From the NCBI GenBank assembly GCA_039928925.1, contig JBDSSF010000003.1, positions 62,001 to 126,000 on the forward strand: a DNA stretch of 64,000 nt, read 5' to 3'. Shown here in pieces: positions 28,962 to 51,536 of this stretch. Position 1 is the first letter of the stretch, and every line of letters begins with the position of its first letter. A program made the translations under genes and the position numbers. This DNA comes from Candidatus Saccharimonadales bacterium (GTDB taxonomy: Bacteria; Patescibacteriota; Saccharimonadia; Saccharimonadales; Saccharimonadaceae). The notes below the pieces were generated by a model. The model saw nothing but the letters and a program-made list of their open reading frames with translations, did not search any database and had not been told where the DNA came from.

Positions 28962-29972
28962 CTAAGGGCGATAGTGCCGATGTCTACGTGACCTACGCTT
29001 TCGTATAAATAGCCAGATGATTATAATTATCCCAATGAAGATAATGATACCAATACCTGCAGCGATGATCAGACTCTGCGGGATTACCCAAAACGATTTT
29101 GAAACTTCAATTGTCTGATTGTTTTTGCCATAAGTAAACGTTGCTATCACCGTATACTGACCAAAGCCTCCAGTGTTACTAAGTGGAATGTCCCACCTGC
29201 GAGCACCATCGGGCAATATCACATCGCGAGGATCTTTAGTATTAAAATCTGTATCATATACAACTTTGTCACCCTGCTTAACTGATACTTTACCAAAAGG
29301 ACCAATCTGTATATTGCCCTTATTTTCGAAGCGAACAGTAGCTTGTAGATTGTCCAAGCTACTAAAGTTCGAACCGGTCATGCCATTTTGCTGAATATCA
29401 AAATTTGTAAGTGCAAGTTTTTCCACCGTATTGCCTGGTACGGACAATAGAATTAATGATGCGACACTTGCACTAAGATTCACCTGGCCACCACCATCTG
29501 GTGAAGTTGGGGCAAAACGAATTGCGCCAAAATATCCACCTGCTTGTGCACTTAGCGGGACAGTTATAACGACATTAATCGTCTTTGCTTGTTTTGGAGG
29601 AATTGTCACACTTGGCAGCGGTGTCATGAAACGCTTGAGACTATGAGTTGGGGCATATGTATTTGCATCTAAAATCAGTGATGGTGTTCCTCGTTCATCA
29701 CCTGAGACAAAATCGTTCTCTATCGGACTGACGGTAATTGGTAAGCTTGTGAGATTTGTTACAGTTGTTTTGACCGTCTTATTTTCACCTGGCTTAATTT
29801 CGATGTCTGTACGTACTGGTGAGACCTTTAAGGTATTTGCTGTATTAATTTCAATTGCCGCTACCGAATGTAAACCCGTGAGTATAGCTATGATTGCAAA
29901 TGTCATCAGCACTGCCATAATCATTCGGATGTTTATTTGTATGCGCTGGGCTTTTAACACTTTTAACTCCAC
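28962..29972 (-). CDS. DUF916-like membrane-anchored surface protein 1
   Basis: 336 residues: N-terminal membrane or signal segment (about 17-40), two Ig-like beta domains, C-terminal helix at about 298-320 and a basic tail with R-K-R-R-S-R-R-H-R-H. The first domain has the DUF916 pattern: V-S-P-V-R ... I-K-P-G-E-N-K-T-V-K-T-T-V-T-N and I-P-P-K-Q-A-K-T-I-N-V, then A-G-G-Y-F-G-A-I. In Gram-positive bacteria DUF916 proteins accompany WxL surface proteins and bind peptidoglycan. A second copy is encoded at 32252-33313. Confidence 0.8.
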   Translation of the reverse strand: MELKVLKAQRIQINIRMIMAVLMTFAIIAILTGLHSVAAIEINTANTLKVSPVRTDIEIKPGENKTVKTTVTNLTSLPITVSPIENDFVSGDERGTPSLILDANTYAPTHSLKRFMTPLPSVTIPPKQAKTINVVITVPLSAQAGGYFGAIRFAPTSPDGGGQVNLSASVASLILLSVPGNTVEKLALTNFDIQQNGMTGSNFSSLDNLQATVRFENKGNIQIGPFGKVSVKQGDKVVYDTDFNTKDPRDVILPDGARRWDIPLSNTGGFGQYTVIATFTYGKNNQTIEVSKSFWVIPQSLIIAAGIGIIIFIGIIIIIWLFIRKRRSRRHRHYRP

Positions 29973-30038
29973 TCTACGTCATTATCTTTCATCATAACAG
30001 ACAGTTTCGCGTTTACTGTATAGTGCCGTTATCATGTG

Positions 30039-31175
30039 TTAAAACTTTCCGGTAGCAACCAAGCTAAGATCCGCTGAATATAAACCAGCTGGTGTATTAT
30101 TGCTTACACTGGCACCAAACGTAATAGTCATATTCTTATTATTAACTGGCGCACCTGCTGTATCGAGAAATGGGTCTCCGTAAGCGCTTGTGACACCACT
30201 TGCGCCACCTGAAAAATAATTGAGTGCATACGTAGTATTGTTATATCCAGACCCAGCAACAGGCTGGAGTGTCCCTGATGCATCGGTAACACCAACGGAA
30301 CTCGTTGCGGCTGTTGTCTTAATACCAAACTTCGCTTGGCCCACAGATATATCACTTTGAAGAGCTGGAACAATATCACAGACACTCGCACCAGTACGCC
30401 GTAGGCCGCCACAGCTAACGCTATTCTTAAGATTGACAACTGCACCACTCGCAGCATTCGTGGAAATTTGGGTATTAATCGTGCCTTCACTGACAGTAGA
30501 TGCGTTGAGCGCGACTGTATCGCCAACAGTTTCACCAAGTTTCAGTGTGGGAGGATCATTTCCTGTAAGATTACAGTTTGCACTAATAGTATTTTTTGCG
30601 ACACAAAAAGTCATGCTCTCAAGTACAGATCCGGCTACGCCTACAGTTGGTGTGATATACATAGCAACACCGCCCTGATCTTCTGCACCAGTATTCAGAT
30701 CTGTTGATGTATATGCCTGAGCGCTTGTTTTATCAGTGTATGTCACAATACGTGCGTACAGAGGGCCAGCATCTGGAGGGTTTGTTATGCCTGTAAGCGC
30801 TACTGAAATGGGCGCTCCTGCGCCTATAGTGCCAGTGATGACCGCTTGTGTCGTGCTACCTATCACATCAGTAAAACCAGATGTTGTAGAAGCTGCAGAA
30901 CTGACATCAAAGCCTGTCGAAGGCGCAGTGCACGTTTCGCCGATGACAGGGCTGTTTTTGCAAAAATCAATTACAAATGCACCAGCGGCTTGAACTGCCG
31001 TAAAATTAATAGTATACGTAACATTAGTTGCAGAAATTGAGGAGCTACTAAGAGCAATGGATCGTTCCGTCACCTGAGCAGCCGAGACGAGCGCAGACGT
31101 GGCAGTCGTTAATAGTAATGCAGCTGCTATAACTAAATACGCAGCTTGGCGGCTAAATGATCGAATAGAATTCAT
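30039..31175 (-). CDS. Secreted beta-sandwich surface protein, paralogue 1
   Basis: 378 residues from the Met at 31175 (AAAAGGA just upstream). Signal peptide to about residue 34. Two beta-rich domains with Cys pairs (F-V-I-D-F-C ... C-T-A-P and M-T-F-C-V-A ... N-C-N-L). The C-terminus reads N-T-P-A-G-L-Y-S-A-D-L-S-L-V-A-T-G-K-F, the motif shared by all four paralogues in this locus. No C-terminal membrane anchor, so it is probably retained by partners such as the DUF916-like proteins. Role in adhesion or envelope structure is inferred. Confidence 0.72.
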   Translation of the reverse strand: MNSIRSFSRQAAYLVIAAALLLTTATSALVSAAQVTERSIALSSSSISATNVTYTINFTAVQAAGAFVIDFCKNSPVIGETCTAPSTGFDVSSAASTTSGFTDVIGSTTQAVITGTIGAGAPISVALTGITNPPDAGPLYARIVTYTDKTSAQAYTSTDLNTGAEDQGGVAMYITPTVGVAGSVLESMTFCVAKNTISANCNLTGNDPPTLKLGETVGDTVALNASTVSEGTINTQISTNAASGAVVNLKNSVSCGGLRRTGASVCDIVPALQSDISVGQAKFGIKTTAATSSVGVTDASGTLQPVAGSGYNNTTYALNYFSGGASGVTSAYGDPFLDTAGAPVNNKNMTITFGASVSNNTPAGLYSADLSLVATGKF

Positions 31176-31284
31176 TTTCCTTTTCCCTACATCCACTTTG
31201 CTATTTGTCTTCCCCGGTAACGATTTCAGTGTATCATGATACTGCTTATTTTTGTCAAGTTTGTTACTATATTTTGCATCGTAA

Positions 31285-32202
31285 CTACTTTTCCTGGTAG
31301 CTATCTCGTTCTTTTAGCATTTTATTACGAAGTGATACTATTTGGCTACGTCGGCCTAACCAATACGTAGGTAGGAGTAGTATAAGTCCTACGAGAGTAG
31401 GAACCCAGAGTACTTTTGCTGCTGGAGTTGTTGGCGCCGTATCAGTTGCAACGGTTGCATCAACCTTACCACTCGCAAGTGCGATTACCTGCAAAAAAGC
31501 ACTCACGCCATTAACGTCAGTTACTCGTATATTTACCTGATATATTCCTGCATTCTTATAAGTATGCTTAATTGTTACAATCCCAGCAGAAGGTTGACTC
31601 TTAAGCTCGGCTGGTGATCCATCACCCCAATCGAGGCTGAAAGCATATGGACCAGCACCCCCAGATAGTTGTAGAGGCCAGGTCAACTCAGTTCCTGCAG
31701 GGGCGGATCTTCGACCGTACGAGCTCGTAAGCGTCACTAGTGCGCCAAATGCTGTAAAACGCGTATCAGTATAATTAATAGTAACAATATTGGAGGTCGG
31801 TCCTGCCTGATCTAGATCGTCGTATACGATTGCGCTTAGTTCGTTTACTCCTGCAAATAGACTTATTTGTAAACTAAAGCTGCCAGCCTTACATATAACT
31901 GAGCCAACCATGACTCCATTATCATATACCTGAACAAGTAGGTCGTTAGCACAAATACCGTTAACTGTCGTTGTTGGTGACGTAAATGAGGAACCATTCC
32001 CGGGTGTTGTTATGGTTGCGCCAACTGTCGGAGGCGGTTGTGTTTTTGTCGCCTCAAGACCATATGACCCTGGCTTTGGATTGGGCGTGGGAAGTGCAGT
32101 AATCGCAGATACTGGCTGAACGTAAACAAACAGCGCCAGCATACACATACCCGTTGCTACCAGGCGTGTCCACTGTGCGCTGAAATGTATTTTATACGTC
32201 AT
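31285..32202 (-). CDS. Ig/PKD-domain surface protein with C-terminal anchor
   Basis: 305 residues: signal peptide (to about 33), a Pro-rich linker, an Ig-like domain at about 60-148 (two Cys at the expected strand positions), and a PKD domain at about 160-245 with L-D-W-G-D-G-S and H-T-Y-K-N-A-G-I-Y. A membrane helix follows at about 263-283, then a basic cytoplasmic tail. PKD and Ig domains act as spacers or binding modules on cell surfaces. Confidence 0.78.
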   Translation of the reverse strand: MTYKIHFSAQWTRLVATGMCMLALFVYVQPVSAITALPTPNPKPGSYGLEATKTQPPPTVGATITTPGNGSSFTSPTTTVNGICANDLLVQVYDNGVMVGSVICKAGSFSLQISLFAGVNELSAIVYDDLDQAGPTSNIVTINYTDTRFTAFGALVTLTSSYGRRSAPAGTELTWPLQLSGGAGPYAFSLDWGDGSPAELKSQPSAGIVTIKHTYKNAGIYQVNIRVTDVNGVSAFLQVIALASGKVDATVATDTAPTTPAAKVLWVPTLVGLILLLPTYWLGRRSQIVSLRNKMLKERDSYQEK

Positions 32203-32251
32203 ACTTATGCTTATTGTAGCGTGCTGGGGCTACATGCGAAAGTGCTAGCTG

Positions 32252-33313
32252 CTATTTTCGACGTGATGACTTTTTAAGCTGTGGACCGTATATTTTTCGA
32301 CGAATTGCACGGACAGTACGAAGAACAACATACGCAAGAATGATAAGAACTACGATGAACAGGAATATGAACCACATTGGTAAGTACCAAAATGTAGCTG
32401 TCTTTACAATTTCCTGTGTTTTATTACCGTTTTGACCATAAAATACATCAAGTGTAGCCGTGTAAACTCCTGGCCATAGACCAGGTGATGCACATGTATT
32501 TGTCTGCGTATTTGAGCCATTGAAGTTTACGTCTTGTGCCTGAATTTTAATACATGTCGTAAATGTACGCGTTTGACCAATAAGGGCAAGTGAGCCACTT
32601 GGGTTAACATTATTGATCGTCTGTTCTTTACCAAAAATATCTTTTAATACAATACTACCTACCGGTGCCTCAGTAACGTTACCGTTGTTTTGTAGTGTGT
32701 ATGCAAGGTTTTGTGGCTCGTTACCCGTTATGAAAAGGTAGCCAGAATCTTTACCTTGTGCGGCCGTATCATATGCGCCAAAGTTTTTAATCTTAAGATC
32801 TTCATTAACTTGTCCTGGGATTGAGGTGAAAACAAGCGTCGCACCTGATGCGCTTAGGCCGACGTTACCACCATCTCCAGGGGCACCTGATGAATACAGG
32901 ATTGCACTGTAGTAGCTACCCGCACCATGATTTGCTGGAATTTTAACACTCATGTCAACTGTCTTACTACTGTTTGGTGGAATAGTAACGCTCTCAGGTA
33001 CAGTAAGGAATGGCTTTAGTGACCAAGTTGTCTCCGGTGCATCCGTAGCAAGCATTAGCTTAGGAGTACCACCATTATCTGTATAGGTAAAATCAATAAC
33101 ACGTAGGTTAAGCTCAAGAGGCTGCGCTGGATCAAGGTTGCGGATAGTTAACTTGTCATTAACAGATTTACCGGGCTCAATCGTGTAGTTCTTTTTTGGC
33201 ACTATACTAAGTGATGCCGATGACGCTGCCGAAGCTTGATGCGCAGGAACAATGTATGCCGCCCCCACTAAAACCACAAACGCGGCTATAAAAATGCTTA
33301 TAAGGCGTTTCAT
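32252..33313 (-). CDS. DUF916-like membrane-anchored surface protein 2
   Basis: 353 residues, paralogous to the protein at 28962-29972: signal peptide (cleavage near residue 29), Y-T-I-E-P-G-K-S-V-N-D-K-L-T-I-R-N-L-D-P, I-P-P-N-S-S-K-T-V-D-M, and G-A-G-S-Y-Y-S-A-I-L-Y. It ends with a membrane helix at about 313-335 and a Lys/Arg-rich tail. Differs by a Cys pair in the second domain (T-C-I-K ... N-T-C-A-S). Probably a wall-facing scaffold for the secreted paralogues encoded on both sides. Confidence 0.8.
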   Translation of the reverse strand: MKRLISIFIAAFVVLVGAAYIVPAHQASAASSASLSIVPKKNYTIEPGKSVNDKLTIRNLDPAQPLELNLRVIDFTYTDNGGTPKLMLATDAPETTWSLKPFLTVPESVTIPPNSSKTVDMSVKIPANHGAGSYYSAILYSSGAPGDGGNVGLSASGATLVFTSIPGQVNEDLKIKNFGAYDTAAQGKDSGYLFITGNEPQNLAYTLQNNGNVTEAPVGSIVLKDIFGKEQTINNVNPSGSLALIGQTRTFTTCIKIQAQDVNFNGSNTQTNTCASPGLWPGVYTATLDVFYGQNGNKTQEIVKTATFWYLPMWFIFLFIVVLIILAYVVLRTVRAIRRKIYGPQLKKSSRRK

Positions 33314-33369
33314 TATTTTATTTTTCCCTCACATTATTACAATTCTTAAGTATAAGCTGTATTTTATCA

Positions 33370-34443
33370 TTAAAATCGCCCGCTGGCTATGTAGGTAATC
33401 GTTGTACTATACACACCAGCACGTAAATCTTCACTTGAATTCACTATGTAACTAACGGTAAATTTTTTCATCAGGCTAACGTTAGGTGAATATGCTACGA
33501 CGTCACCTGATACATACTTATACTGATTAGGAATACCGTAGTCAGGCGATGGAACTGCATTTGTCCAGTCGCCTTCAGGGTCGCTTCCAATTGACGGGCT
33601 GTCGTTTGCGACTAAATTAATACCAAACTGATTACTGCCCTGTTTGCTTACAGATGGCACTGATGACGAGTCGATAACGTTTGTACCTGCGCTCATTGAG
33701 TCACCGTTTGCGGTGATCGCAAATCCCCCACTCGCATTTGTGCCAACAGCCATCTGAGATTGTGCCAGTAGAGTCGATTTCGCGCTCAGCTGCCCCATGT
33801 CAGTGTAGTTGATTGCATTCGTGTCAGTACAGTTATCAGCGACCTGACCAGCTACGCAAAATAAAAGCATTGGTGGAACTTGAGTTTCGAGTGTAATATC
33901 GGTGGTCACCTGGCCTTCAACAGAACCAAAGTCAATTTGTGGTCCTGTAGCGTCGGGCGTAGAGTGACTTCGCAGACGAATTGAGAATGACTCACTAGTA
34001 TCTGTCGGGTTTACGATATTATCAAACTTATATGATGACCCGTCTGCCGTTATCATGCTACTCGGGCGTGTCAGTACAATATGGTTTGCTGTTTTAGACA
34101 AGATCGAAAAGCCCGTCTCTCCCGACTGAGCACTTAGTACAGCATTAGACACATCGAGACCAGGTGGCGTCACACAGGGATGGTACGGAATAGGGTCAAC
34201 GCAAAATAGCATATCCACTGAGCCTACGGGAATCGGAGTTACGTATCGAAACGACAGCGTATATGATGTTGTGACACCGGGTCGCGTGCTATTCATATAA
34301 AGTCCGCGCTCCTGAAAACGTGTCGCAGCTGATACGGGTACAACAAATACGAACAAAGCTAATAATAAGGCTAGAAATTCCTCAGACCATAAATTACGCC
34401 ATGAAAAGATGTGCGCATGAAATCGTAACAACTTATGCTGCAT
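33370..34443 (-). CDS. Secreted beta-sandwich surface protein, paralogue 2
   Basis: 357 residues from the Met at 34443; the first in-frame ATG (34509) lies in the terminator of the upstream gene. A TACAAT box just upstream suggests its own promoter. Signal segment ends near V-S-A-A-T. Same two-domain plan as paralogue 1: M-L-F-C-V-D ... P-C-V-T-P-P-G-L-D-V-S, then L-L-F-C-V-A ... N-C-T-D, V-G-T-N-A-S-G-G-F, and C-terminal L-R-A-G-V-Y-S-T-T-I-T-Y-I-A-S-G-R-F. Confidence 0.72.
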   Translation of the reverse strand: MQHKLLRFHAHIFSWRNLWSEEFLALLLALFVFVVPVSAATRFQERGLYMNSTRPGVTTSYTLSFRYVTPIPVGSVDMLFCVDPIPYHPCVTPPGLDVSNAVLSAQSGETGFSILSKTANHIVLTRPSSMITADGSSYKFDNIVNPTDTSESFSIRLRSHSTPDATGPQIDFGSVEGQVTTDITLETQVPPMLLFCVAGQVADNCTDTNAINYTDMGQLSAKSTLLAQSQMAVGTNASGGFAITANGDSMSAGTNVIDSSSVPSVSKQGSNQFGINLVANDSPSIGSDPEGDWTNAVPSPDYGIPNQYKYVSGDVVAYSPNVSLMKKFTVSYIVNSSEDLRAGVYSTTITYIASGRF

Positions 34444-34494
34444 ACCTATCATTGTACTAAATAATAGAGATAATGCGTAGCTACTGATACACAA

Positions 34495-34525
34495 AGAATA
34501 ACCGGCCAAAACGGCCGGTTATTCT
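34495..34525 (-). terminator. Strong symmetric terminator
   Basis: A 13-bp stem (AGAATAACCGGCC / GGCCGGTTATTCT) with a 5-nt loop. Ends transcription of the large paralogue 3 gene on the minus strand. Confidence 0.85.
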
Positions 34526-34568
34526 CATATTAACAATCTCTTTGCTATGTCTTAGCTAAACGTTATGT

Positions 34569-36311
34569 CTAGTACTGAGGAGCAGCGATGTAGTTAATTT
34601 TAGTTGTGTAGATACCAGCTGGAGTCGTTGCTGCAATGTTTGCAATGTAACGAACTTTACCAGTTACACAGTCGACAACCTGGTTGCTCTCAGAAGCAAG
34701 TGGAGTCGGGATCAAGTTTGAATCAGGATCAAATGCGTACTTTGTGTTAACAGAGCCGTATTGTCCAGGTCCACCGTTTACAACACCCGCACCTTGGTCG
34801 TAATTGACTTCTGGGATAAGTGGGTATAGTTGTGGATCATGGTATCCTGAAAGTCCCTGAGCTGTAACATCTGCTGCAACACTTGCGTGTAGACCAGATA
34901 CCGCAGCATCTGCACCATTTTCGAAGGCACCTTTTCCGGCGTTTCCACCAAGGTTATCTTCTTTATTGTAGTTAAGCGTGTAGAGGTTACCAGCACCACC
35001 TACAAGGCCGTTAGCTGCACGTGTACCGTTTGTCAGTGCTAGTCCAAATTGTGGTGTACCACGGCTTGGAGCTACTGATGAAGTACCGATTGCTCTAATT
35101 TCGTCACCAACGGTGTTTTTAAGTGTCACACCTGAGTAGTAAACTGTTGCACCAGCACTAGAGTTCGAGCTTAGACGCCAGTACGAGTGTGTACTGTAAG
35201 TTGCAGCTGTACTTAGTGAGTTTTCACCAGTTGTATCACCAAGTTGCAGAACGTTTGGCTGAGCAGGATCTGCTAGCATACCTTTTGCAATTGGATCACA
35301 TTGACCGTGTTTTGTTGCGTTGTTGTCGCCTACTGGTGTAGTAACAAGTGCATTTTCTAGTTGACTTGGAGTTGAAACGCTACCGTTAGAACTATCAAGT
35401 GTGTATGGGTCAACCGTTCCAACAGAGAAGTCCATAGTTTCAAGGACCTTTGTTTGAATTTCGATTGATTGGTTCATGATGTTAGCAACAGTAACACCAC
35501 CGTCAACTACTGTCGTAGCAGCTGTGTCACTATAGTCGTTAATCTTTACGAAGAACGCACTTGCACCAGGGTTAGTGATGTAGTTTGTATCTGTACCGAA
35601 GAAGATAACTTTCACAAAATCACCAGCAGCAAGTGTCTGACCACCTGAGTTCGATAGCGTAATGTAGTTAGCTTTTCCTGTTGATGTACCACCAACAACC
35701 GTACCAGCAGAACCACCTGAAGTTTGGTTCACACTAGAAGCCATTGTCCATCCAGTGCTTGCAGTCCAAGGATCACCTACAAGAGTTTTGTGCATAACAA
35801 TGTAGTTACCTTCGCTGTTGTCGGCTTTTGGAACATTTGCAGAACTGCTTGGAACACCAGTTGTTGCGTTAAATTTTGTACCGAATGTTGAGACTGCAGC
35901 TGGAGTTGCAGTTACTACTTCAAGGTCACTTTGCTTAGCTGCAAATGCCGTAGCATCGTTTGCGTTAGCATGGTCTGCAATATTACCAGGTCCCATACAG
36001 TCACCAGCTGGGTGAGTACAGTACTGGAATGTCATTGCCTTAATAGATGCGCCTGAGCTTACATTAAAGGCAAATGTGTTACCAGTTTGTCGACCATTTG
36101 CACCGCTGTTTGGCTGTGCGTAGGTTGCATTACCTGAACCGTCTTTGTAACTCCATCCAGGTGATGAGCTCGAAAGCGTCAAGCTACGGTTTGTTAGTGG
36201 ATTCAATGCGTCCGCGAAAACTGCCGTTGATGGAACGACGGCAGCAAGCACAAGTGCTGCTGCGGCGCCCATAAGCGTGCCTCGCTGAGCGATTGATTTT
36301 AGTGTATACAT
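34569..36311 (-). CDS. Large secreted surface protein, paralogue 3
   Basis: 580 residues from the Met at 36311 (AAGGA upstream); a longer frame begins at 36440 but has no signal-like start. Signal peptide M-Y-T-L-K-S-I-A-Q-R-G..., cleavage near V-F-A. Ser/Thr/Asn/Gly-rich beta protein with Cys at F-Q-Y-C and D-C-M-G. C-terminus T-P-A-G-I-Y-T-T-K-I-N-Y-I-A-A-P-Q-Y matches the other paralogues. It has its own strong terminator and may be an abundant S-layer-like or adhesin protein; that is inference from size and composition. Confidence 0.75.
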   Translation of the reverse strand: MYTLKSIAQRGTLMGAAAALVLAAVVPSTAVFADALNPLTNRSLTLSSSSPGWSYKDGSGNATYAQPNSGANGRQTGNTFAFNVSSGASIKAMTFQYCTHPAGDCMGPGNIADHANANDATAFAAKQSDLEVVTATPAAVSTFGTKFNATTGVPSSSANVPKADNSEGNYIVMHKTLVGDPWTASTGWTMASSVNQTSGGSAGTVVGGTSTGKANYITLSNSGGQTLAAGDFVKVIFFGTDTNYITNPGASAFFVKINDYSDTAATTVVDGGVTVANIMNQSIEIQTKVLETMDFSVGTVDPYTLDSSNGSVSTPSQLENALVTTPVGDNNATKHGQCDPIAKGMLADPAQPNVLQLGDTTGENSLSTAATYSTHSYWRLSSNSSAGATVYYSGVTLKNTVGDEIRAIGTSSVAPSRGTPQFGLALTNGTRAANGLVGGAGNLYTLNYNKEDNLGGNAGKGAFENGADAAVSGLHASVAADVTAQGLSGYHDPQLYPLIPEVNYDQGAGVVNGGPGQYGSVNTKYAFDPDSNLIPTPLASESNQVVDCVTGKVRYIANIAATTPAGIYTTKINYIAAPQY

Positions 36312-36512
36312 GTTTGTATATATCCTTTTTTGTTTTAATATTTTATTCCTTTTGCAAGGGGTACAGCCGCATCTTACCATTAGAAGTATGTGGAGCGCAA
36401 TAGGTTTTCCACAGGATTTTTTATATTTTCTTAATTTCATACATAGCCACTACTATACGAGACTCGTTTGCTCATTGGATTTATAGTAATACTGCTATAC
36501 TATAAGCAAATT

Positions 36513-37926: not shown

Positions 37927-38949
37927 ATGGAACCCGACAAAAATACTACTCCGTCTACAGAAGATAAATCGCCTGAAGAAGATCGAGGTGCTCCTGTTGA
38001 CGCACTGAGTCGCACTCCTGATGATCTTGATAGCGAGAAAGCCGAACAGACTGCAGCTGACAAGTTAGATCATCCGACCGACGAACCAGGCGTGAAAAAA
38101 ATCTCCCCTTTTAAGAAGTTCTTTCGTAAAGTGAATCTTTATTTTCTCATGTTTTTACTTGTTATTGTTATCGCAGGCGTTGTTACTGCTGTCAATTATT
38201 TAAATAGCACAAAGGTTACTCCTGAACCCAGTATTGCAACCCAAGGATTAAGCCAAGATGCCCTCAAGCAGCTCGCTAATAAAGATGCGACTGTTGGCAA
38301 CACGTCACAGACACTTACAATTCAAGGTAACGCGATTATAGCTGGTCAAACACTTCTTCGCGGCAACCTAAATGTCGCTGGCAATATACAGAGTGGCGGT
38401 AGTATTCAAGGCCCAAGCCTAACTATTTCTGGTCAATCAAATCTCGGTGCAACACAGATTAATAGTCTTCAGGTTGCCACCAATACCGCAGTCCAAGGTA
38501 GCACAACTCTTCGAGATCTTAATGTCGCCGGTACGTCTTCATTTAGCGGTGCAATGACCGCTTCACAGATCACTGTGTCGCGATTAATCTTAAGTGGTAA
38601 CGCGGTTCTTCAAATCCCTAATCATATTAGCTTCACAGGGCCATCCCCAAGTCGAACGATTAATACTAGTGTCCTTGGAAGTGGAGGCTCAGCATCCGTC
38701 AATGGATCTGACACCTCGGGCGTTGTTAATATCAATACTGGTGGCGGACCGATAGCTGGCTGTTTTGCGCGCATTAACTTTCAACAAGCTTTTGTAAATC
38801 AGCCCCATGTTATCATTAGCCCGGTTGGTTTAGCTGCTGGACAAACTGAATACTATGTTGATCGTAATACGACTGGATTTAGTATCTGTACTGCAAACCC
38901 TGCTCCAGCAAACCAAGTTTTTGCATTTGATTACTTCGTGACAAACTAG
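37927..38949 (+). CDS. Membrane-anchored fibre-like protein
   Basis: 340 residues. Acidic cytoplasmic N-terminus (about 1-65), transmembrane helix at about 75-95, then repeated short beta units (G-N-L-N-V-A-G-N-I, S-L-T-I-S-G-Q-S-N-L, R-D-L-N-V-A-G-T-S-S-F-S-G) like those in trimeric tail fibres and autotransporter stalks. A compact C-terminal head of about 80 residues with two Cys follows. It is a type II membrane protein with a surface stalk and head. It is convergent with the ATPase operon, ending 3 nt from the epsilon-like gene. Confidence 0.72.
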   Translation: MEPDKNTTPSTEDKSPEEDRGAPVDALSRTPDDLDSEKAEQTAADKLDHPTDEPGVKKISPFKKFFRKVNLYFLMFLLVIVIAGVVTAVNYLNSTKVTPEPSIATQGLSQDALKQLANKDATVGNTSQTLTIQGNAIIAGQTLLRGNLNVAGNIQSGGSIQGPSLTISGQSNLGATQINSLQVATNTAVQGSTTLRDLNVAGTSSFSGAMTASQITVSRLILSGNAVLQIPNHISFTGPSPSRTINTSVLGSGGSASVNGSDTSGVVNINTGGGPIAGCFARINFQQAFVNQPHVIISPVGLAAGQTEYYVDRNTTGFSICTANPAPANQVFAFDYFVTN

Positions 38950-38952
38950 TGC

Positions 38953-39269
38953 CTAAACGTCTACGAACACAACGACACGGTCAGCTTTCACGTGCACCAA
39001 TGCCCTATGGATCTTAATAATTTTTTGTTCACCCTCGACTGGTAAAATCGTAAGATTACACGGCACAAGCATTGATAAGAACTGGTGATGATGTGGAAGA
39101 ATATCAAATGGCCCAGTTGTGTTTACCGCACTGACACTAAAGGCATCACCCTCAAAATATACCTGGAATGGCGCATATACCTTTACCGCCATAGTCGGCT
39201 TACCGCCGTGTACTTTAAGTGTGGTCGACTCTGACTCGACTACTTCAGGATTTATCACTTCATCTGCCA

Positions 39270-39270
<1 letters not shown>
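38953..39270 (-). CDS. atpC: F1 ATPase epsilon-like subunit, lacking the C-terminal helices
   Basis: 105 residues. After a 25-residue N-terminal tail comes the epsilon beta-sandwich: V-Y-A-P-F-Q-V-Y-F-E-G-D-A, G-P-F-D-I-L-P-H-H-H-Q-F-L-S-M-L, and V-K-A-D-R-V-V-V-F. The two C-terminal helices that inhibit ATP hydrolysis in canonical epsilon are missing, as the protein stops at the sandwich. Last gene of the operon; overlaps the beta stop by one base. Without the inhibitory arm the enzyme may run freely as an ATPase. Confidence 0.82.
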
Positions 39271-41608
<2,338 letters not shown>

Positions 41609-43156
41609 CTACTTCTTCTCCTCTTTGACAGGTTGTGTTGGAGTATTTGCTTGTGCTTCCGCCTGGGCAGCTTCGTCAGCTTGGCGCTTCTTCTCTATTT
41701 CGTTCTTTGCCGCTTTCTCAATAGCTGCTCGCTTCACCTCATCAATCGTGGTAACTTCAGCTTTTAATGCCGTTTCAAGCTCTTCATAATTGCCCTTCAT
41801 ATCCTTGTCTTCTTGTAGTTTTGGAGCATACTCATGCACTTTTTCTTTTAGCATATCGACATTAATAATTTCTTCAGGAGTACTCCCAAGTACAATACTC
41901 ATAAGGAATTGTTGTTCAGCAAAGCTATAGATTTCACCAATTCCCTGATTCATCAATTTAAACAGCACCTTACCTTTATCGTAATTAGCCTGAGCGTCAG
42001 GACTTAGTTCTGTACCAAAGTGAGCGTACTCCTCTGCAGTTCGATAGCCTGCGAGCGTTAGGTTAAGTTTATCGGCAAAACCTTTTTGTCGTTTATTTTG
42101 ACCAACACCACCAACGCGAGTCACGGAAAGTGCCGTACTAACTGCTGGACGCATTGTATCTTTAAAGATTTTTTCATCCAAAATCCATTGACCATCCGTA
42201 ATAGACATAATGTTGGTTGGTAGGTAGGCGGTGATATCACCACCCGGTGCATAAACAATCGGGATAAGTGTTTGACTTGCATGATTTGACTCTGTCTTGC
42301 CACCACGCTCCAAAAGGCTAGAGTGTGTGTAGAACATGTCACCTGGGTATGAATCACGTCCTGGTGAGACACCTGCGATTAAGGAGATTTCACGGTAGGC
42401 CTGGGCGTGTGCTGTCAGGTCATCATAAATAACGAGTGTATCCATATTACACTGATGCCAAAAGTATTCACCGTGCGCAGCACCAACATACGGCACTAGG
42501 TAGGTGAGAATCAATGATTCAAAAGAGTTACTTACAACGACAACAGCCTTTTTGAGTGCATCATTTCTTTCTAGGTTACTCACAAGCTCTGCGACGTCAT
42601 GTTGACGCTTGGCAATTAGCACGTAGATAACTGTGATGTCACTGTTTTTCTGGTTAATAGCAACTTGCGCTGCTAGTGCTGTCTTACCTACTTTACTATC
42701 TCCGAGCATCGCCATACGCTGTCCACGTGCAAGTGAGTACTCAAGATCAAGAATTGTGACACCTGTCTCGACAGGGGTATCGAGTAGTTCGCGCTCATAA
42801 AGCATCGGCGCAGAGTGGAACACATCCCATTCTTGGTCAGTAACAATCTCGCCCTTGCCATCAAGCGGTTCACCAAATACATTAACAACCCGGCCAATAA
42901 AGTTCTTACCAACGGGAATCATAATATCAAGCGCTTCGATGACACAGACCATACCAGTATGAAGTGGCGTTGCGTCAAGTTTCATCACAACAACATGATC
43001 TTCAAGTACCTGGTGGACATATCCGCGGGTACCGTTTTCGAAACGTACGGTCGCATGAACGTTTGTTGGCTGAAGACCTTTAATACTCACCATGAATGAG
43101 TCGATACCAATAATCTCTCCTACCGGATTACCGTCAGCAACTAGTTTCTCAAACAT
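41609..43156 (-). CDS. atpA: F1 ATPase alpha subunit
   Basis: 515 residues from the ATG at 43156, one base after the delta stop; the longer frame overlaps delta. P-loop G-D-S-K-V-G-K-T at 152-159 (canonical G-D-R-Q-T-G-K-T), Y-D-D-L-T-A-H-A near 270, P-G-R-D-S-Y-P-G-D, and the arginine finger in S-V-T-R-V-G-G. The N-terminal segment that docks on delta is shortened (starts M-F-E-K-L-V). The C-terminus ends in an Ala/Glu/Lys-rich helix and tail of about 50 residues not usual in AtpA. Confidence 0.92.
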   Translation of the reverse strand: MFEKLVADGNPVGEIIGIDSFMVSIKGLQPTNVHATVRFENGTRGYVHQVLEDHVVVMKLDATPLHTGMVCVIEALDIMIPVGKNFIGRVVNVFGEPLDGKGEIVTDQEWDVFHSAPMLYERELLDTPVETGVTILDLEYSLARGQRMAMLGDSKVGKTALAAQVAINQKNSDITVIYVLIAKRQHDVAELVSNLERNDALKKAVVVVSNSFESLILTYLVPYVGAAHGEYFWHQCNMDTLVIYDDLTAHAQAYREISLIAGVSPGRDSYPGDMFYTHSSLLERGGKTESNHASQTLIPIVYAPGGDITAYLPTNIMSITDGQWILDEKIFKDTMRPAVSTALSVTRVGGVGQNKRQKGFADKLNLTLAGYRTAEEYAHFGTELSPDAQANYDKGKVLFKLMNQGIGEIYSFAEQQFLMSIVLGSTPEEIINVDMLKEKVHEYAPKLQEDKDMKGNYEELETALKAEVTTIDEVKRAAIEKAAKNEIEKKRQADEAAQAEAQANTPTQPVKEEKK

Positions 43157-43157
43157 T

Positions 43158-43676
43158 TTATTTGCTTCCACGAAGCATCTCCAATTCCTTAACGAGTAAT
43201 CCGTGACCACCAGCCAACATAGCGCGGAGACTAAAGTCATGCACGTGGTTTGGTGTCCTAAGATACACACCAGCAATTAAGGCAGGCTGAAGACCAACTG
43301 TAATAACTGCCTGTTGATGTACGGACGAACGAAGCCATCCAACGAGTTGACCCAGACTTTCACGATCAGCTGGTACGGCAAATGTCATATGAATAATAGG
43401 AACTTTATCTTTTAGCAAACGGAGTTCACTAATAAGATTACTCCGCTCACGTGAAGTAGCGAGTGTGAGTTTATTCTGTTCCAAAAAGTCTGACAATTGT
43501 CCTGATGGTGTTGCATCGGTATGTTCGGAAACCCCTGCCTTCGTACGAACAACTGTTGCAGTCAGTTCGTTATCGAGTCGTTCAATTTCATTTAAAAGAC
43601 GTGATATATCAACCTTACTGATAACACTAAGTGGAAGTACAAAGTCAGTGTATGTTTTCACTACTGATTCGCTCAT
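43158..43676 (-). CDS. atpH: F1 ATPase delta-like subunit
   Basis: 172 residues. The C-terminal third (I-T-V-G-L-Q-P-A-L-I-A-G-V-Y-L-R-T-P-N-H-V-H-D-F-S, split by eye) matches the OSCP/delta C-terminal domain that ties the peripheral stalk to alpha. The N-terminal part is helical but not clearly the canonical six-helix bundle. Stop is 1 nt from the alpha start, and the ATG overlaps the upstream coiled-coil gene by 4 nt. Confidence 0.75.
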   Translation of the reverse strand: MSESVVKTYTDFVLPLSVISKVDISRLLNEIERLDNELTATVVRTKAGVSEHTDATPSGQLSDFLEQNKLTLATSRERSNLISELRLLKDKVPIIHMTFAVPADRESLGQLVGWLRSSVHQQAVITVGLQPALIAGVYLRTPNHVHDFSLRAMLAGGHGLLVKELEMLRGSK

Positions 43677-44578
43677 AATTTCATGTCATCCATAATCGCC
43701 TGCTTACTCGTCTCCATCTGCTTAATGATGGAAGGTAATTGTGCCTTAATGTCATATTGATCGCCGAGTGAACCGAGTAGGTAGTGCTCAATAACTTGGG
43801 CCATATTATCTTCAAAAGCAGTTACCAGCATAGATTCTTGAGATACGACACTATTTTCAAGCATTGCACTCATCTGTTTATATTGCTCCTTCAAAGCTTC
43901 TGCACTACTATTCAAAGACTGAAGTGCAGTGTCTTGAACTTCTTTTGTTGCCGTCACCCGGGTCATATTTTCCTCAAATACTTTTGTGAGAAGTGCTTGT
44001 TGATCAACGATGGTTTTTTGAAGTGACGTCGTAAGCTGCTTCGATTGCTCTTGGGAGACCTGCGCACTAGCCTTGAGTGCTTGTAAAATAACTTCTTGTG
44101 CATTTTGTGTTGTCGTCATGCGTGATTTGTTTTCTTCAAAAACACCAATCATCATAACTTCTTGGCTAGCAATGCTTTGTTGTAAGGTTTGGCTCAACTG
44201 CTGGTATTTGTTATACAGCGTTTGAGCATTACGGTTGAGTGACTGAACTGCAAGATCTTGAGCGTCTGTTGTTATGCGGTCATATTCAGTTAGTCGCTCG
44301 TCGAGCTGTTTGGTCATTTCAGTATTGATATGTGCAATTGTTGCGTCGAGCTGTTTGGTCATGTACTCTTTAAGATCTGCGCCGACTTGAGTGATCGTCG
44401 TATCAAGATCATGCTTGAAGCTTATAGCATTCTCGCTAATAATTTGTTCAAAATACTCATGACCTTGACGGCGTAACTCTTCTCGATACTCTTCGTCAAA
44501 GGCTTGGGATACTAAAGCAGCAGCATCGTCTTGTGGCGACTTTTTTTTCGATTGTTTTTTGCTTTGAAATAATCCCAT
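43673..44578 (-). CDS. Coiled-coil protein in the b-subunit position, no membrane anchor
   Basis: 301 residues, almost entirely helical, with no hydrophobic segment. A charged start (K-K-Q-S-K-K-K-S) is followed by long heptads. A 54-residue unit repeats almost exactly: F-E-E-N-K-S-R, F-E-E-N-M-T-R and F-E-D-N-M-A-Q are spaced 54 residues apart, with a partial unit before. It overlaps the delta gene by 4 nt and takes the place of atpF. Canonical b anchors by an N-terminal membrane helix; this protein cannot. It may be a peripheral stalk tethered by another protein, or a filament-like linker. Confidence 0.8.
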   Translation of the reverse strand: MGLFQSKKQSKKKSPQDDAAALVSQAFDEEYREELRRQGHEYFEQIISENAISFKHDLDTTITQVGADLKEYMTKQLDATIAHINTEMTKQLDERLTEYDRITTDAQDLAVQSLNRNAQTLYNKYQQLSQTLQQSIASQEVMMIGVFEENKSRMTTTQNAQEVILQALKASAQVSQEQSKQLTTSLQKTIVDQQALLTKVFEENMTRVTATKEVQDTALQSLNSSAEALKEQYKQMSAMLENSVVSQESMLVTAFEDNMAQVIEHYLLGSLGDQYDIKAQLPSIIKQMETSKQAIMDDMKL

Positions 44579-44603: not shown

Positions 44604-45446
44604 TCATAGCTTCAGTAGTAAATATACCGCAAATAGGCCAATAATTAAAATTAATATACTAGTCAATATAATCTCGATTAATGCTCTGAAAATTGACTTT
44701 TTTGACATCGGATTACGGCCGATTGAGACAACACCATTACGCACCCCCGAATATAAAATGGCAATTGCAGCGATAATACTAACGGCCGTAATACCCATAC
44801 TAAGATAAATACGTATTGGGCTAACCTGCTTTTCAGCAATTGCCTGACCAATCCTTTCAAGGATATCTGGCACGTCTACTTTCGTGCTTTTGTCGTTTGG
44901 GTTGTGTTTAATATCGATAGTAACCGGGATTGAACCCAAGGTCACAGTTTTGGTTGTGTTACCAGATGTGTCTTTGAGTGTAGTTGTGCCCAAGTTAACA
45001 CCCTTACCATCAAAAGAACCTGCCGTTCGACCAAACACTGTTTTTTCTTCAGTACCTGCCTTCATGGCAACACCATCTATTGATGATAACGTTAGATAAT
45101 CACCAACTGCAATCGGACCAGCCTGATTACTTACCAAGACGTTGTATGTTCCAGATACGGCGACAAATGTCTCATTTTCAATGCCTTCGTTCGTCAAGGT
45201 TAAGGGTAGCTGAGTACGATCAACAGTTACGCCAAACATGTTTTGAAGTTCTTTTTGACCAACAATTTTGACACGGTTTGAATCTTTGCCAGTTAGCTGG
45301 ACAATTGTACCGTTATCAAGAGGTTTATCAGACGCATAGCCCTGGACGCTTCCACCTCCGTAATTATCCGCGAGTACTGGCAAAGTAGCGACGATGGTCA
45401 GACCGACCATAACCGCCATACTCACAATAATTCGCGATACTCTCAC
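44604..45446 (-). CDS. Exported protein with C-terminal c-subunit-like membrane hairpin
   Basis: 280 residues, GTG start. Signal or anchor segment at 1-26 (ends L-A-D). An exported beta-rich domain at about 27-190 contains V-S-G-T-Y-N-V-L-V-S and G-D-Y-L-T-L-S-S, like the head domains of CPR and phage fibre proteins. A two-helix hairpin (about 212-234 and 255-279) has the loop I-G-R-N-P at 242-246. In F-type c subunits the loop is R-Q-P and an ion-binding Asp or Glu lies about 18 residues after Pro; here that position is Ile264, with Glu258 and Thr262/Ser263 nearby. First gene of the F1 operon, in the place of a and c. Confidence 0.8.
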   Translation of the reverse strand: MRVSRIIVSMAVMVGLTIVATLPVLADNYGGGSVQGYASDKPLDNGTIVQLTGKDSNRVKIVGQKELQNMFGVTVDRTQLPLTLTNEGIENETFVAVSGTYNVLVSNQAGPIAVGDYLTLSSIDGVAMKAGTEEKTVFGRTAGSFDGKGVNLGTTTLKDTSGNTTKTVTLGSIPVTIDIKHNPNDKSTKVDVPDILERIGQAIAEKQVSPIRIYLSMGITAVSIIAAIAILYSGVRNGVVSIGRNPMSKKSIFRALIEIILTSILILIIGLFAVYLLLKL

Positions 45447-45670: not shown

Positions 45671-45750
45671 TGGCACCACACATCTAAGTGAAATAAACAT
45701 ATTACTCACATCTCACAGATGTAGAAATAAAATGTAGAAATGTGGTGCCA
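45671..45750 (+). promoter_or_regulatory. Long hairpin in the leader that covers the start codon
   Basis: TGGCACCACA (45671-45680) is a perfect inverted repeat of TGTGGTGCCA (45741-45750), and a second inner pair (CATCT 45681-45685 / AGATG 45717-45721) extends the stem. The 3' arm overlaps the ATG at 45740, so the folded RNA would hide the start codon. May be translational control. Confidence 0.5.
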
Positions 45751-48700
45751 CCTCCCCACTGGTATTGGACGTCTTCGTTCCCTACGATTTGTAGCGGTAA
45801 TGTTGATGATCGTAGCGTTAATCACAACGCTATTATTTGCTAGTGTTACACACGCAGCGCCTGGTATAAGCAAAACGATTAGCTTCCAGGGACGACTTAT
45901 GACCGCAGCAGGTGCTGTGGTTGCTGATGGTCACTACAATATGCAGTTCAAAATCTACCAGGACGGCACGGGAGCAACTGCGGGCAACCCTGGTGGAACT
46001 TTGAAGTGGACTGAAACATACAACAATAATGGCGGGATTGATGGCGTCGATGTAAAAAATGGGTTCTTCTCAGTCACCCTTGGATCGGTTAATCCATTCG
46101 GTACAAGTGTTGACTGGAACCAAGATACACTGTTCTTATCTATGAATGTCGCAGGAAAAGCGGCGGCATGTACCACTTTTGGTACTGCGCCATGTGCAGC
46201 TGATGGCGAAATGCTCCCGATGAAACGCATCACCGCTACCCCATTCTCTCTCAATTCAGGTGCTGTTGGTGGCAAAACTGCAGACAACTTCGTGCAGCTT
46301 GGTCAAGGTATTCAAACTGATGCTAGTACTAACACGAGTAGTATTTTTATAAACAAAACAAGTACTGGTAACTTGATTCAACTTCAAAATACAGCAGTAG
46401 ATATTTTCACTGTCTCAAATACTGGAGATATAGCGCTCGGTAATAACGCAAATAAATCAATCTCAATCACTGACGCTGATGCAAATACAACTGGTCGTCA
46501 ACTATCAGTCGTAGCAGGTGGTGGTGGATCTGGCTCCGGAGCAGATGGAGGAAACTTGGTACTTCAAGGTGGAGCAGCTGGCGGCACCAATGGTAATGGT
46601 GGCGACGTACAAATTGACGCAGGTGTAAAAACTGGTACAGGTTCAGATGGCTCGATCGCGATTGGTGAAACTAATGCTAGCTCAATAACAATTGGTAGCA
46701 CTACTGGCTCTCGCACTCAAGATATTAGCATTGGAACCAATAACACTGCTGGAAGCGTATCAAATGTAACGGTTGGTTCTGGTGGGTCTGCGGCTGCTGG
46801 TACGACAAAAATTCAGGCTAAGAATGCTGTCACTATTGAAACCAATGGAACAACTCGTGCGACATTCTCTGATACGACCAACACTGTTTATTTCGGAAAC
46901 GGAGTTATGTCAGCTGCACCAACCGACTCAACTCTGCAAGGTACAAATAGTTCTGCAACTGCCGTCGCGGGTGGATCACTCAATGTTCAGGGTGGTAATG
47001 CAACAACAGGCAATGCCAACGGTGGCAACGTAACGATTGCAGGTGGTAGTGGTAGCGGTTCTGGTAGCAATGGACTCGTTGTACTTACTACTCCAACTTT
47101 CTCAACTGTGACAAATGATGCAAACTGTTATACAAGCGGCGCGGCCGTTGCAAGTAGTTGTACAATTACTGCAAGCAGTGTTAATAATTCCTCAGCAGTA
47201 CTTGTCGGCTTCAGTGCCGATGGCAAAACAGCGACACTTCCAAATCCAACAATCACAACTGCTGGACGAATCATGTATATTATGGCCGCTAGTGGGTCTA
47301 AGGATTTTACACTGTCAGTTAACGGTGGCGGTGCTGGTAACCAAATAACACTACGTCAAAACACAACTGCGACAGTGCTATGGAATGGCTCTGCCTGGAC
47401 TTCGGCGAACACTTCTAGCTCTACGACGCTACAGGATGCATACAATAATACCCCACAGACTGATAGCGGGAGTAGCCTCACACTAAGTAATAGCGGTGAC
47501 TCTGCCACTCAAGGTATCAGTATTCAGGATAGTAATACTAATCCAGTTAACGATGCGCTACTTGAGGTTAAGAATGCAAGTAGTACGACATTATTCTCAG
47601 TTAATAGTAACAATGCGGATCATCAAACAGATGGAAATGTACACGATGGTGTCAATTTCAGCACGAACTGGCCAGCAGCTGGAAGTGCATCTACTGCACG
47701 TATTACTACCGATGGCCAGGAGGCAAGTGACAGTGCCGAGGTTACTGCAGGAACTACCGCTGGCAATGGAGTAAAAAATAAACTATTTGTTAAACCGCTC
47801 GTCAGCACACATTACCGCACGTCAGTGTATGCAAAACTTGCAACAGGTAGTGCCTTTACTGATTTCACTGTGCGATACTCACCTGACAATGGGACAACAT
47901 TCGTCGATTGTAGTAACTACAATACTCAAACCGTTGTGACGACAGGCTGGACACAAATAACCTGTGATTTCACCACTGGCACTACACCAGTTACAAACCC
48001 ATACGTCTACTTTACCCAGGCGACAAGCCCTGCAAGTGCCAGAACCTATCTTGTTGATAGCTTCTCATTAACACTTGCGATAAGTAGTAATCCAAATGTT
48101 CAAATCGGCAGTGGAGCAGGCGGAGACCAAACAACATTATTTACTGTTGATAAAGCAGCTGCAGCACCTACAGCATCAGACAGCAATGCACTTCTTGGTA
48201 GCATGTACTACGACACCACACTCGGCAAACTTCAGTGCTATGAGGCTGCTGGTTGGGGTGCCTGTGGTGCAAGTCCTGATACATTTATTACACAGAGCCC
48301 GCAGTATACAAATGCTGTCACCCATGACACAGGTATAGGTACCATGACATCTGACTTATGTTCTGACTCACTAAACATAAATGACGGTAGCTCTTCTCAG
48401 CCAACAATTTGTGGGACCAATGAGACATATAACTTCTACAAGTGGACTTCGTCAGAAGCAACCACTCAGACTCGCAGCATCTTTGTGACATACCAGTTGT
48501 CATCAACCTTTAAAGAATTTGTTCCTGAGTCAACCTCAGTTCTTGGACGTACCGACAGCACTAATTCTGGCGTTACCTACCAAGTGTATCGTAACCACTC
48601 ATCAGGATTAACAGCCTGTGGTTCAGCCGTACCTGTATCATCTGGCGTTCAGACTGCTTGGCAAACTGCTGTCGCGACTGGTAGTTCTGATCCATCAAAC

Positions 48701-48808
48701 TGTGGTTTTGTAGCGGGTGATAGCATTGTTATTAGAATCAATCTCACAAGTAATACAGACGCTAATGCCTACATTAGTAACCTTAGTTTCATCTACAGTA
48801 ACCACTAG
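45740..48808 (+). CDS. Giant secreted fibre/adhesin-like protein
   Basis: 1022 residues. Signal peptide ending near V-T-H-A (about 39). An N-terminal module with I-S-F-Q-G-R-L, D-G-H-Y-N-M-Q-F-K-I-Y and N-G-F-F-S-V-T-L-G-S follows, a module I associate with CPR surface proteins. Then comes a long Gly/Ser/Thr/Asn-rich region of short beta repeats (S-I-T-I-G-S-T, G-G-N-L-V-L-Q-G-G) like tail fibres. A jelly-roll carbohydrate-binding-like domain lies at about 632-780, and a Cys-containing C-terminal head at about 860-1022. No membrane anchor at the C-terminus. Divergent from the F1 operon. Confidence 0.8.
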   Translation: MWCHLPTGIGRLRSLRFVAVMLMIVALITTLLFASVTHAAPGISKTISFQGRLMTAAGAVVADGHYNMQFKIYQDGTGATAGNPGGTLKWTETYNNNGGIDGVDVKNGFFSVTLGSVNPFGTSVDWNQDTLFLSMNVAGKAAACTTFGTAPCAADGEMLPMKRITATPFSLNSGAVGGKTADNFVQLGQGIQTDASTNTSSIFINKTSTGNLIQLQNTAVDIFTVSNTGDIALGNNANKSISITDADANTTGRQLSVVAGGGGSGSGADGGNLVLQGGAAGGTNGNGGDVQIDAGVKTGTGSDGSIAIGETNASSITIGSTTGSRTQDISIGTNNTAGSVSNVTVGSGGSAAAGTTKIQAKNAVTIETNGTTRATFSDTTNTVYFGNGVMSAAPTDSTLQGTNSSATAVAGGSLNVQGGNATTGNANGGNVTIAGGSGSGSGSNGLVVLTTPTFSTVTNDANCYTSGAAVASSCTITASSVNNSSAVLVGFSADGKTATLPNPTITTAGRIMYIMAASGSKDFTLSVNGGGAGNQITLRQNTTATVLWNGSAWTSANTSSSTTLQDAYNNTPQTDSGSSLTLSNSGDSATQGISIQDSNTNPVNDALLEVKNASSTTLFSVNSNNADHQTDGNVHDGVNFSTNWPAAGSASTARITTDGQEASDSAEVTAGTTAGNGVKNKLFVKPLVSTHYRTSVYAKLATGSAFTDFTVRYSPDNGTTFVDCSNYNTQTVVTTGWTQITCDFTTGTTPVTNPYVYFTQATSPASARTYLVDSFSLTLAISSNPNVQIGSGAGGDQTTLFTVDKAAAAPTASDSNALLGSMYYDTTLGKLQCYEAAGWGACGASPDTFITQSPQYTNAVTHDTGIGTMTSDLCSDSLNINDGSSSQPTICGTNETYNFYKWTSSEATTQTRSIFVTYQLSSTFKEFVPESTSVLGRTDSTNSGVTYQVYRNHSSGLTACGSAVPVSSGVQTAWQTAVATGSSDPSNCGFVAGDSIVIRINLTSNTDANAYISNLSFIYSNH

Positions 48809-50325: not shown

Positions 50326-51375
50326 TCAAGCCGCTAGTGAGAAGTCACTTTTGGTTGGCTGCATTCTCGCAAGTACTGGCTGATCACCAGCAGTAAGCGT
50401 CGATGAGACAGCAAGTGTACGGATCAGAAAGTCAGCATATGCAGTTGCCCGCGCTTCTTCAAAGTTTGTTTCTGGAATGACTTCAGCTGCAAGTTGAGCC
50501 ATCGCGTCGGAGTACATACGACCACGCCATATATCCACAACGAACACCTGTAGCTCAGAACGAATTCCAGCCTGACTGAACTTAATATCGAGAGCTCGCT
50601 GATCAAGTGTTGTGCCGTCGATATCATTGAGAACAACGTATGCTTCAAGATGATGGTCTGCCAGTTCTTTAACAACAGCACCACTTTCTTCAATGAGGCC
50701 CATGGTTTTACTACCAGCAGCATTTGAAAAATAGTTCTCATCATCTACAACGACGTCATAGGTAGCAAAAACCTTATCAATGAATTCTTTATTTTCTTCG
50801 TATGAATCTCCATATAGGACCTGAAGAGTTGCCTCAATTGAAGATCGATGTGTCAAAATATTCTGTGTAATGAGTGGGTACTTATCAATAGCACCGCAGC
50901 CGCAGTTATCACCACTTGCATGGCTATCTGTATGAGCTCCAAAACTGATATGTAATTTCTCAAGTTTATCTGCAATATAGGCACGGTCACCATACACTGT
51001 TTCTTGGTGCTGTGCTGGACCGTTAATTGCCCTCCACATACTTGATGCGACAACAAGACCGCCACCAAATACCTTTGCACGTCGCCTAGAGGCGTTGAAC
51101 TCCTCAGTTAGACCTGTCTCTTTATTTATACGAAAGACCCGTGCCGCTTGTCTCCCATCACCGCAGCCATCATCATCTGCATCGGCATCTACTGATACAA
51201 AAACACCGTCGGCATTTTTAATAATATCGATTCCCGTTCGCAGCTCATCTGCACTAAGCTCGCCAGACTCGATACGCTTATTGACGCTAATCGAGCCTTC
51301 GCCAAAACCAAGACCCTTCTCAGTAATACATGCAACTTCGATAGTTTTATCATACTCAAGAGTTTCGTCTGGCAT
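50326..51375 (-). CDS. Putative cadmium/zeta-type carbonic anhydrase
   Basis: 349 residues from the Met at 51375, which has AGAGG 8 nt upstream (an earlier ATG at 51399 adds eight residues). C71-x-D73-x-R75 is the Cys ligand plus Asp-Arg dyad of beta/zeta carbonic anhydrases, and H148 and C158 (10 apart) fit the remaining two ligands of the zeta (CDCA) class. H152 and C160 lie beside them. It would interconvert CO2 and bicarbonate. Distances between the Cys and His ligands differ from the diatom enzyme, so this is a family-level guess. Confidence 0.55.
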   Translation of the reverse strand: MPDETLEYDKTIEVACITEKGLGFGEGSISVNKRIESGELSADELRTGIDIIKNADGVFVSVDADADDDGCGDGRQAARVFRINKETGLTEEFNASRRRAKVFGGGLVVASSMWRAINGPAQHQETVYGDRAYIADKLEKLHISFGAHTDSHASGDNCGCGAIDKYPLITQNILTHRSSIEATLQVLYGDSYEENKEFIDKVFATYDVVVDDENYFSNAAGSKTMGLIEESGAVVKELADHHLEAYVVLNDIDGTTLDQRALDIKFSQAGIRSELQVFVVDIWRGRMYSDAMAQLAAEVIPETNFEEARATAYADFLIRTLAVSSTLTAGDQPVLARMQPTKSDFSLAA

Positions 51376-51536
51376 ACTATATACCTCTTTTTCCTTCACT
51401 ATAATGTCCCTAACTTTTTATATTTTTTTGTGACTTACTTAATTAATTTATACGCCAACATAAAACAAAAGTAAACCCATACAAAACAGACCATTTACTA
51501 TGAATTTTTCATTTATAGATAGTATATTGAAATATT

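Follow-up and report, generated by a model that had tools for sequence, protein, structure and literature searches.

A Saccharibacterial F1-like ATPase operon encodes an exported protein with a subunit c-like hairpin, the putative rotor of a proposed ion-independent rotary device

The window, i.e. the whole stretch of 64,000 nucleotides that was analysed, belongs to a Saccharibacteria genome of 0.98 Mb. It contains an operon with the gene order X - b-like - delta - alpha - gamma - beta - epsilon, which is the order of ATP-synthase genes with X, the first gene, in the place where a and c belong. The features of this operon and of two flanking genes are the following:

44604..45446 (-): X, exported protein with a fused ATP-synthase-c-like hairpin, 280 aa (from sequence and family profiles)
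45369..45446 (-): signal peptide of X, residues 1-26 (from sequence and hydropathy)
44847..45368 (-): exported beta-rich domain of X, residues 27-200, with GDYLTLSS at residue 115
44607..44834 (-): c-like hairpin of X, residues 205-280 (from profile and PDB matches)
44709..44717 (-): RNP loop of X, residues 244-246, the same in all 40 divergent X compared
44655..44657 (-): Ile264 of X, at RNP+18, where subunit c has its ion-binding Glu/Asp
43673..44578 (-): coiled-coil stalk protein occupying the subunit b position, without a transmembrane segment (TM) in this clade
43158..43676 (-): delta/OSCP-like subunit, only the C-terminal half recognisable
41609..43156 (-): F1-like alpha, 515 aa, Arg finger present, N-terminus short
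40742..41608 (-): F1-like gamma
39270..40742 (-): F1-like beta, Walker A/B and catalytic Glu present
38953..39270 (-): F1-like epsilon, 105 aa, beta-sandwich only
45740..48808 (+): 1022-aa surface protein, divergent from X, candidate external partner
37927..38949 (+): membrane-anchored repeat protein with a weak bactofilin match, candidate partner

The original prediction had described X as a single polypeptide consisting of a signal peptide, an exported beta domain with a G-D-Y-L-T-L-S-S motif and a membrane hairpin with an RNP loop facing the cytosol. All of these elements were recovered, and the domain limits proposed at the time, including residues 205-280 for the hairpin, were correct. 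The accompanying idea, that F1 rotation could reach a structure outside the cell if the hairpins oligomerise like a c ring, is supported to the extent that sequences allow, a cognate F1 being encoded in the same operon. The signal peptide has an R-rich n-region, a hydrophobic core and VLA|D, and hydropathy places hydrophobic stretches at approximately residues 1-28, 210-240 and 250-280. Because the loop of the hairpin is basic, it should be cytosolic with both hairpin ends outside; charge and signal peptide together predict an N-out/C-out topology like that of a canonical c subunit. RNP is the rotor-contact motif of subunit c. The GTG start of X coincides with the starts of 20 orthologues in the alignment. 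X is 57-80% identical across 20 Saccharibacteria contigs, with identities down to 22% across the phylum, and given this conservation it is judged to be a genuine gene and not a chance open reading frame.

The coiled-coil gene starts within 25 nt of X, and the genes of the operon abut or overlap, the ATG start of alpha lying 1 nt past the delta stop. This order was kept in 20 of 20 close Saccharibacteria loci, as far as the contigs extend, and the cultured strain TM7i, the genome of which is complete (CP075337), has the operon unbroken. The 1022-aa surface protein adjoins X in all 20 Saccharibacteria loci (in one through a weak match only), the repeat protein is the convergent neighbour of the operon wherever the contigs extend that far, and the surface-protein neighbours of the operon have the same order in 20 other Saccharibacteria contigs, again as far as these extend. 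Within the Saccharibacteria clade, the mean identity is 83-84% for alpha and gamma, 65% for X and 44% for the stalk protein. In most lineages the b-like protein has one N-terminal TM followed by a coiled coil; the TM has been lost in the clade of the window, close relatives of which have it. The epsilon subunit is devoid of the inhibitory C-terminal helices. In addition, all subunits of a complete second ATP synthase, a, c and b included, are encoded elsewhere in the same genome, and that operon contains the only copies of PF00137 and PF00119 in the genome, one of each.

The catalytic core of alpha, beta and gamma is of the F1 type and its active-site residues are intact: the Walker A Lys, the catalytic Glu and Arg and the Walker B Asp of beta, as well as the Arg finger of alpha, are conserved in 40 of 40 cases. 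In phylogenetic trees, F1-like alpha and F1-like beta were each separated by a single branch (SH-aLRT 100) from a canonical set that included the second copy of the same genome and E. coli sequences, and they are therefore no recent duplicates. Sequences were assigned to alpha or beta by the better-scoring profile, and the alpha and beta trees separate cleanly. It should be noted that a few alpha sequences probably contaminate the Saccharibacteria beta profile, in which the minimum identity is 25%.

The spread of the system was assessed by running a profile of X, and then a profile of the hairpin only, against 380 Patescibacteria genomes. Among the matches listed, the X-type hairpin occurs in about 71 of these genomes (about a fifth) and in 33 family-level groups. 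In 34 of 40 distant loci, X adjoins F1-like alpha, gamma, beta and epsilon, and in one further locus it lies beside delta at a contig edge. The five loci at which X has no adjacent F1 genes (L060, L063, L064, L065 and L070) are in genomes with F1-like alpha/beta elsewhere. The F1-like pair was absent from 23 of 24 genomes without X, while one genome rated 100% complete (G149, locus L140) has a full F1-like b-delta-alpha-gamma-beta-epsilon cluster and no detectable X. In four genomes of one family (L066, L067, L077 and L078), two different X flank one F1-like operon, possibly for a mixed ring or for two alternative rotors.

The likeness of the hairpin to subunit c, as originally proposed, was borne out by profile searches, which gave significant similarity at the level of the family. 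R244, N245 and P246 are invariant across 40 X that are 22-74% identical to the X of the window. The latter itself matched the NCBIfam c subunit weakly (E=0.05, and 0.014 for the hairpin alone) and did not match Pfam ATP-synt_C. Proteins in the same operon slot of loci L121-L126 score 27.7-32.1 bits against Pfam ATP-synt_C, which has a cut-off of 24, and reach E-values down to 1.1e-11 against PRK06876, the relatives that pass the Pfam threshold in this slot being those with Ig-like domains, which end in such a hairpin; the X of L053 matches NCBIfam c at 2.9e-6. The next-best matches of the hairpin profile were canonical c subunits from at least 66 genomes (best 1.2e-10), such as G206:C47:4406 and G197:C44:36310, which are also PF00137 matches, and all six PDB matches up to E=1 were c-ring subunits. 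An hhalign comparison of 40 X with 18 canonical c subunits gave a gapless alignment with a probability of 92% and a score of 35.2, versus 11.8 for reversed c. However, shuffled c profiles in which GRNP was kept fixed scored up to 34.2, so most of the score of the whole X set stems from GRNP. The subgroup L053, L058 and L074-L076 scored 51.9 versus at most 37.4 for shuffles, and still reached 87% with RNP masked. For the clade of the window, homology of the hairpin to subunit c is thus transitive, running through L053, L121-L126, the hairpin profile and the PDB matches, and the similarity is weak outside GRNP. Since the glycine motif of c is mostly gone from the first TM in this clade, the packing of a ring would be uncertain there.

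In canonical c subunits, the ion-binding Glu/Asp resides in the second TM at RNP+18. An acid at this position was found in none of the 40 X and 12 further hairpins compared, the X of the window having Ile264. Likewise, no subunit a is encoded in the F1-like operon, the single a of the same genome being part of the other operon. Of 24 genomes in which X occurs together with F1-like alpha/beta, 21 gave no match to subunit a (PF00119); some of these 21 are single-contig, and two have alpha/beta-type genes of another rotary type. The joint absence of the ion-binding acid and of subunit a makes ion coupling very unlikely, and the loss of the acid favours the proposed passing of rotation to the outside over ion transport.

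The membrane part of X is constant, but the exported part varies by lineage and may be a beta domain of about 170 aa, an Ig-like array of 600-760 aa (Big_1, Invasin_D3) or an NHL propeller. Such swapping of the exported part, with the hairpin kept, is expected if hairpins of one standard type drive different exported loads. The label 'fibre-head', which had been attached to the exported domain, is only loosely justified: the X of the window gave no significant family match in Pfam, PHROGs or PDB, fibre-head families included, although the beta domain recurs throughout Patescibacteria within open frames 600-4400 aa long (e.g. G227:C2:109904 and G072:C4:4352). The best PHROGs match of its relatives was head scaffolding, which is weak (1.6e-4, in 4 of 40). 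AlphaFold models of X and of the exported domain, built with 20 close sequences, had pLDDT values of 56 and 48, too poor for a fold.

Based on these sequence comparisons, we consider it fairly probable that the operon encodes a rotary ATPase whose F1 part, by hydrolysing ATP, drives round an ion-dead ring that derives from subunit c and bears surface domains. The cytosolic alpha3-beta3 head would hydrolyse ATP and drive gamma-epsilon round as in F1, and the X hairpins would build a membrane ring whose RNP loops seat gamma-epsilon. The ring would have no ion-binding acid and the system no subunit a, and no ion flow would be coupled to its turning. As X would be inserted with its N-terminus out, every hairpin would bear an exported domain, and the ring would turn a crown of surface domains and so deliver torque outside the cell. 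The b-like coiled coil and delta would keep the F1 head stationary. Several points were counted against this rotor reading, namely the weak similarity to c outside GRNP and the uncertain ring packing in the clade of the window, the stalk without TM in the window, which makes it less evident how the head would be held, the five loci where X has no adjacent F1 genes, and the genome with an F1-like cluster and no X. Crowding would also be expected with ten or so ectodomains per ring, which counts against it as well. The biological task, at a guess, could be attachment, gliding, or acting on the wall or on a host surface.

Alternatively, the c-like ring might be a static or stepping coupler, such that ATP hydrolysis makes the exported domains change shape or assemble differently, for instance in adhesin release or pulling, and no continuous rotation takes place. 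In canonical F1, a long N-terminus of alpha binds delta; with neither this extension nor the TM of the stalk in the window, the stator may be loose. A mycoplasma F1-like X0 ATPase with the same layout drives a surface process that depends on the Walker lysine, and non-rotary coupling has been proposed for the mycoplasma MIB-MIP system (PMC12994834). Nevertheless, gamma, epsilon, delta, the b-like protein and the c loop are all present, which is the full set for rotation, and we regard a static or stepping coupler as rather unlikely. Even less probable is a pore or export device, in which surface proteins would be secreted or inserted by way of the c-like ring or next to it, powered by the F1-like ATPase. 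Numerous surface proteins are indeed encoded nearby, and alpha and beta are also distantly related to type III secretion ATPases, but the operon showed no genes for an export apparatus, and an exported part that varies by lineage and is covalently tied to the ring subunit fits a carried load better.

The presence of all F1 subunits together with b, delta and c-like parts could also mean that the operon encodes an ion-pumping or ATP-making F1Fo paralogue with a divergent c. This is highly improbable in view of the missing subunit a in the operon and in 21 of the 24 F1-like genomes, the complete ATP synthase already present in the genome, and the absence of the ion-site acid from every X compared; with no acid at RNP+18 and no subunit a, the ion-pump reading was rejected. 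The truncated epsilon and the drifted hairpin of the window clade might finally point to a decayed ATP-synthase remnant or to a misassembly of the metagenome-derived sequence. The conservation of alpha and gamma in the clade, the catalytic residues retained in all 40 cases, the intact operon in complete genomes such as that of TM7i, and the 33 family-level groups among the matches listed contradict this idea, the probability of which we consider negligible.

The rotary ATPase that we favour is most closely matched by the mycoplasma F1-like X0 ATPases, i.e. Type 2 (gliding, G1-ATPase) and Type 3 (MIB-MIP). These have extra F1-like alpha, beta, gamma and epsilon without subunit a, and their ATPase is tied to a surface function (PMC3369863, PMC12994834, PMC11864180), a tie that we only infer for the X system. 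Their operons encode a protein with a signal peptide, an ectodomain and two C-terminal TM (PMC3369863), and in this 'Protein 5' (MSC_0620, MMCAP2_0577, MMOB1650), which is laid out like X, the ectodomain is large and the loop between the two TM short. Unlike the X operon, however, the mycoplasma clusters are devoid of b and delta and include a 12-TM protein, no counterpart of which was seen in the X operon, and Protein 5 was reported to be non-homologous to any Fo subunit, whereas the X hairpin is c-related. The alpha and beta of the window scored 236-396 bits against the mycoplasma NCBIfam models MSC_0618/0619 and MMOB1660/1670, which have cut-offs of 520-850. At L119 and L120, where X has an NHL propeller and the F1-like cluster is without a b-like gene, the alpha and beta frames are 600-690 aa long; the larger beta is reminiscent of the mycoplasma gliding motor, in which beta is extended.

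The alpha, beta, gamma, delta and epsilon of the X system, like its b-like and c-like parts, have homologues in F1Fo ATP synthase, and the gene order is the standard one; the X system differs in the missing subunit a and ion-binding acid, the fusion of c to an exported domain, an epsilon without C-terminal helices, and alpha and beta that form a separate clade. N-ATPases (alternate F1F0) likewise come from an additional F-type operon next to the usual one, but these are ion pumps with a and c subunits of their own. Against the NCBIfam alt_F1F0 models, alpha and beta of the window scored 303 and 396 bits, with cut-offs of 750.5 and 752.

The gene set of X seems undescribed so far. Among the open-access articles searched, which include few preprints, none was found that links an F1-like ATPase to Patescibacteria or Saccharibacteria. 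In Southlakia epibionticum, the predicted F-type ATP synthase was dispensable (PMC10633639). A census of rotary ATPases demanded both a and c (PMC11738941) and would consequently miss an X-type system.

Whether there is a phylum-wide class of motors, in which F1, acting across a single membrane, spins surface adhesins or fibres by way of an exported, ion-dead c rotor, and of which mycoplasma gliding and MIB-MIP are reduced versions, appears to us evenly balanced. Rotation is known to be delivered outwards by flagella, archaella and the type 9 secretion motor. If true, the present reading would add a further route, through a rewired ATP synthase, in a phylum that depends on hosts and of whose surface mechanics little is understood. 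It would also offer a reason why F1 genes are kept in some Patescibacteria without an ion-translocating Fo, and it cautions that F1 genes in Patescibacteria genomes do not prove an ATP synthase. Moreover, it suggests a degenerate c as the identity of the unexplained Protein 5 in the mycoplasma gliding and MIB-MIP ATPases.

Lastly, a run of surface proteins (WxLIP peptidoglycan-binding, PKD) is encoded downstream of the operon at 28962-36440 (-) of the window, which might represent a load or anchor of a motor. A 357-aa protein encoded at 50326-51399 (-) matches a cadmium-carbonic-anhydrase repeat (PF18484, 6.4e-9).
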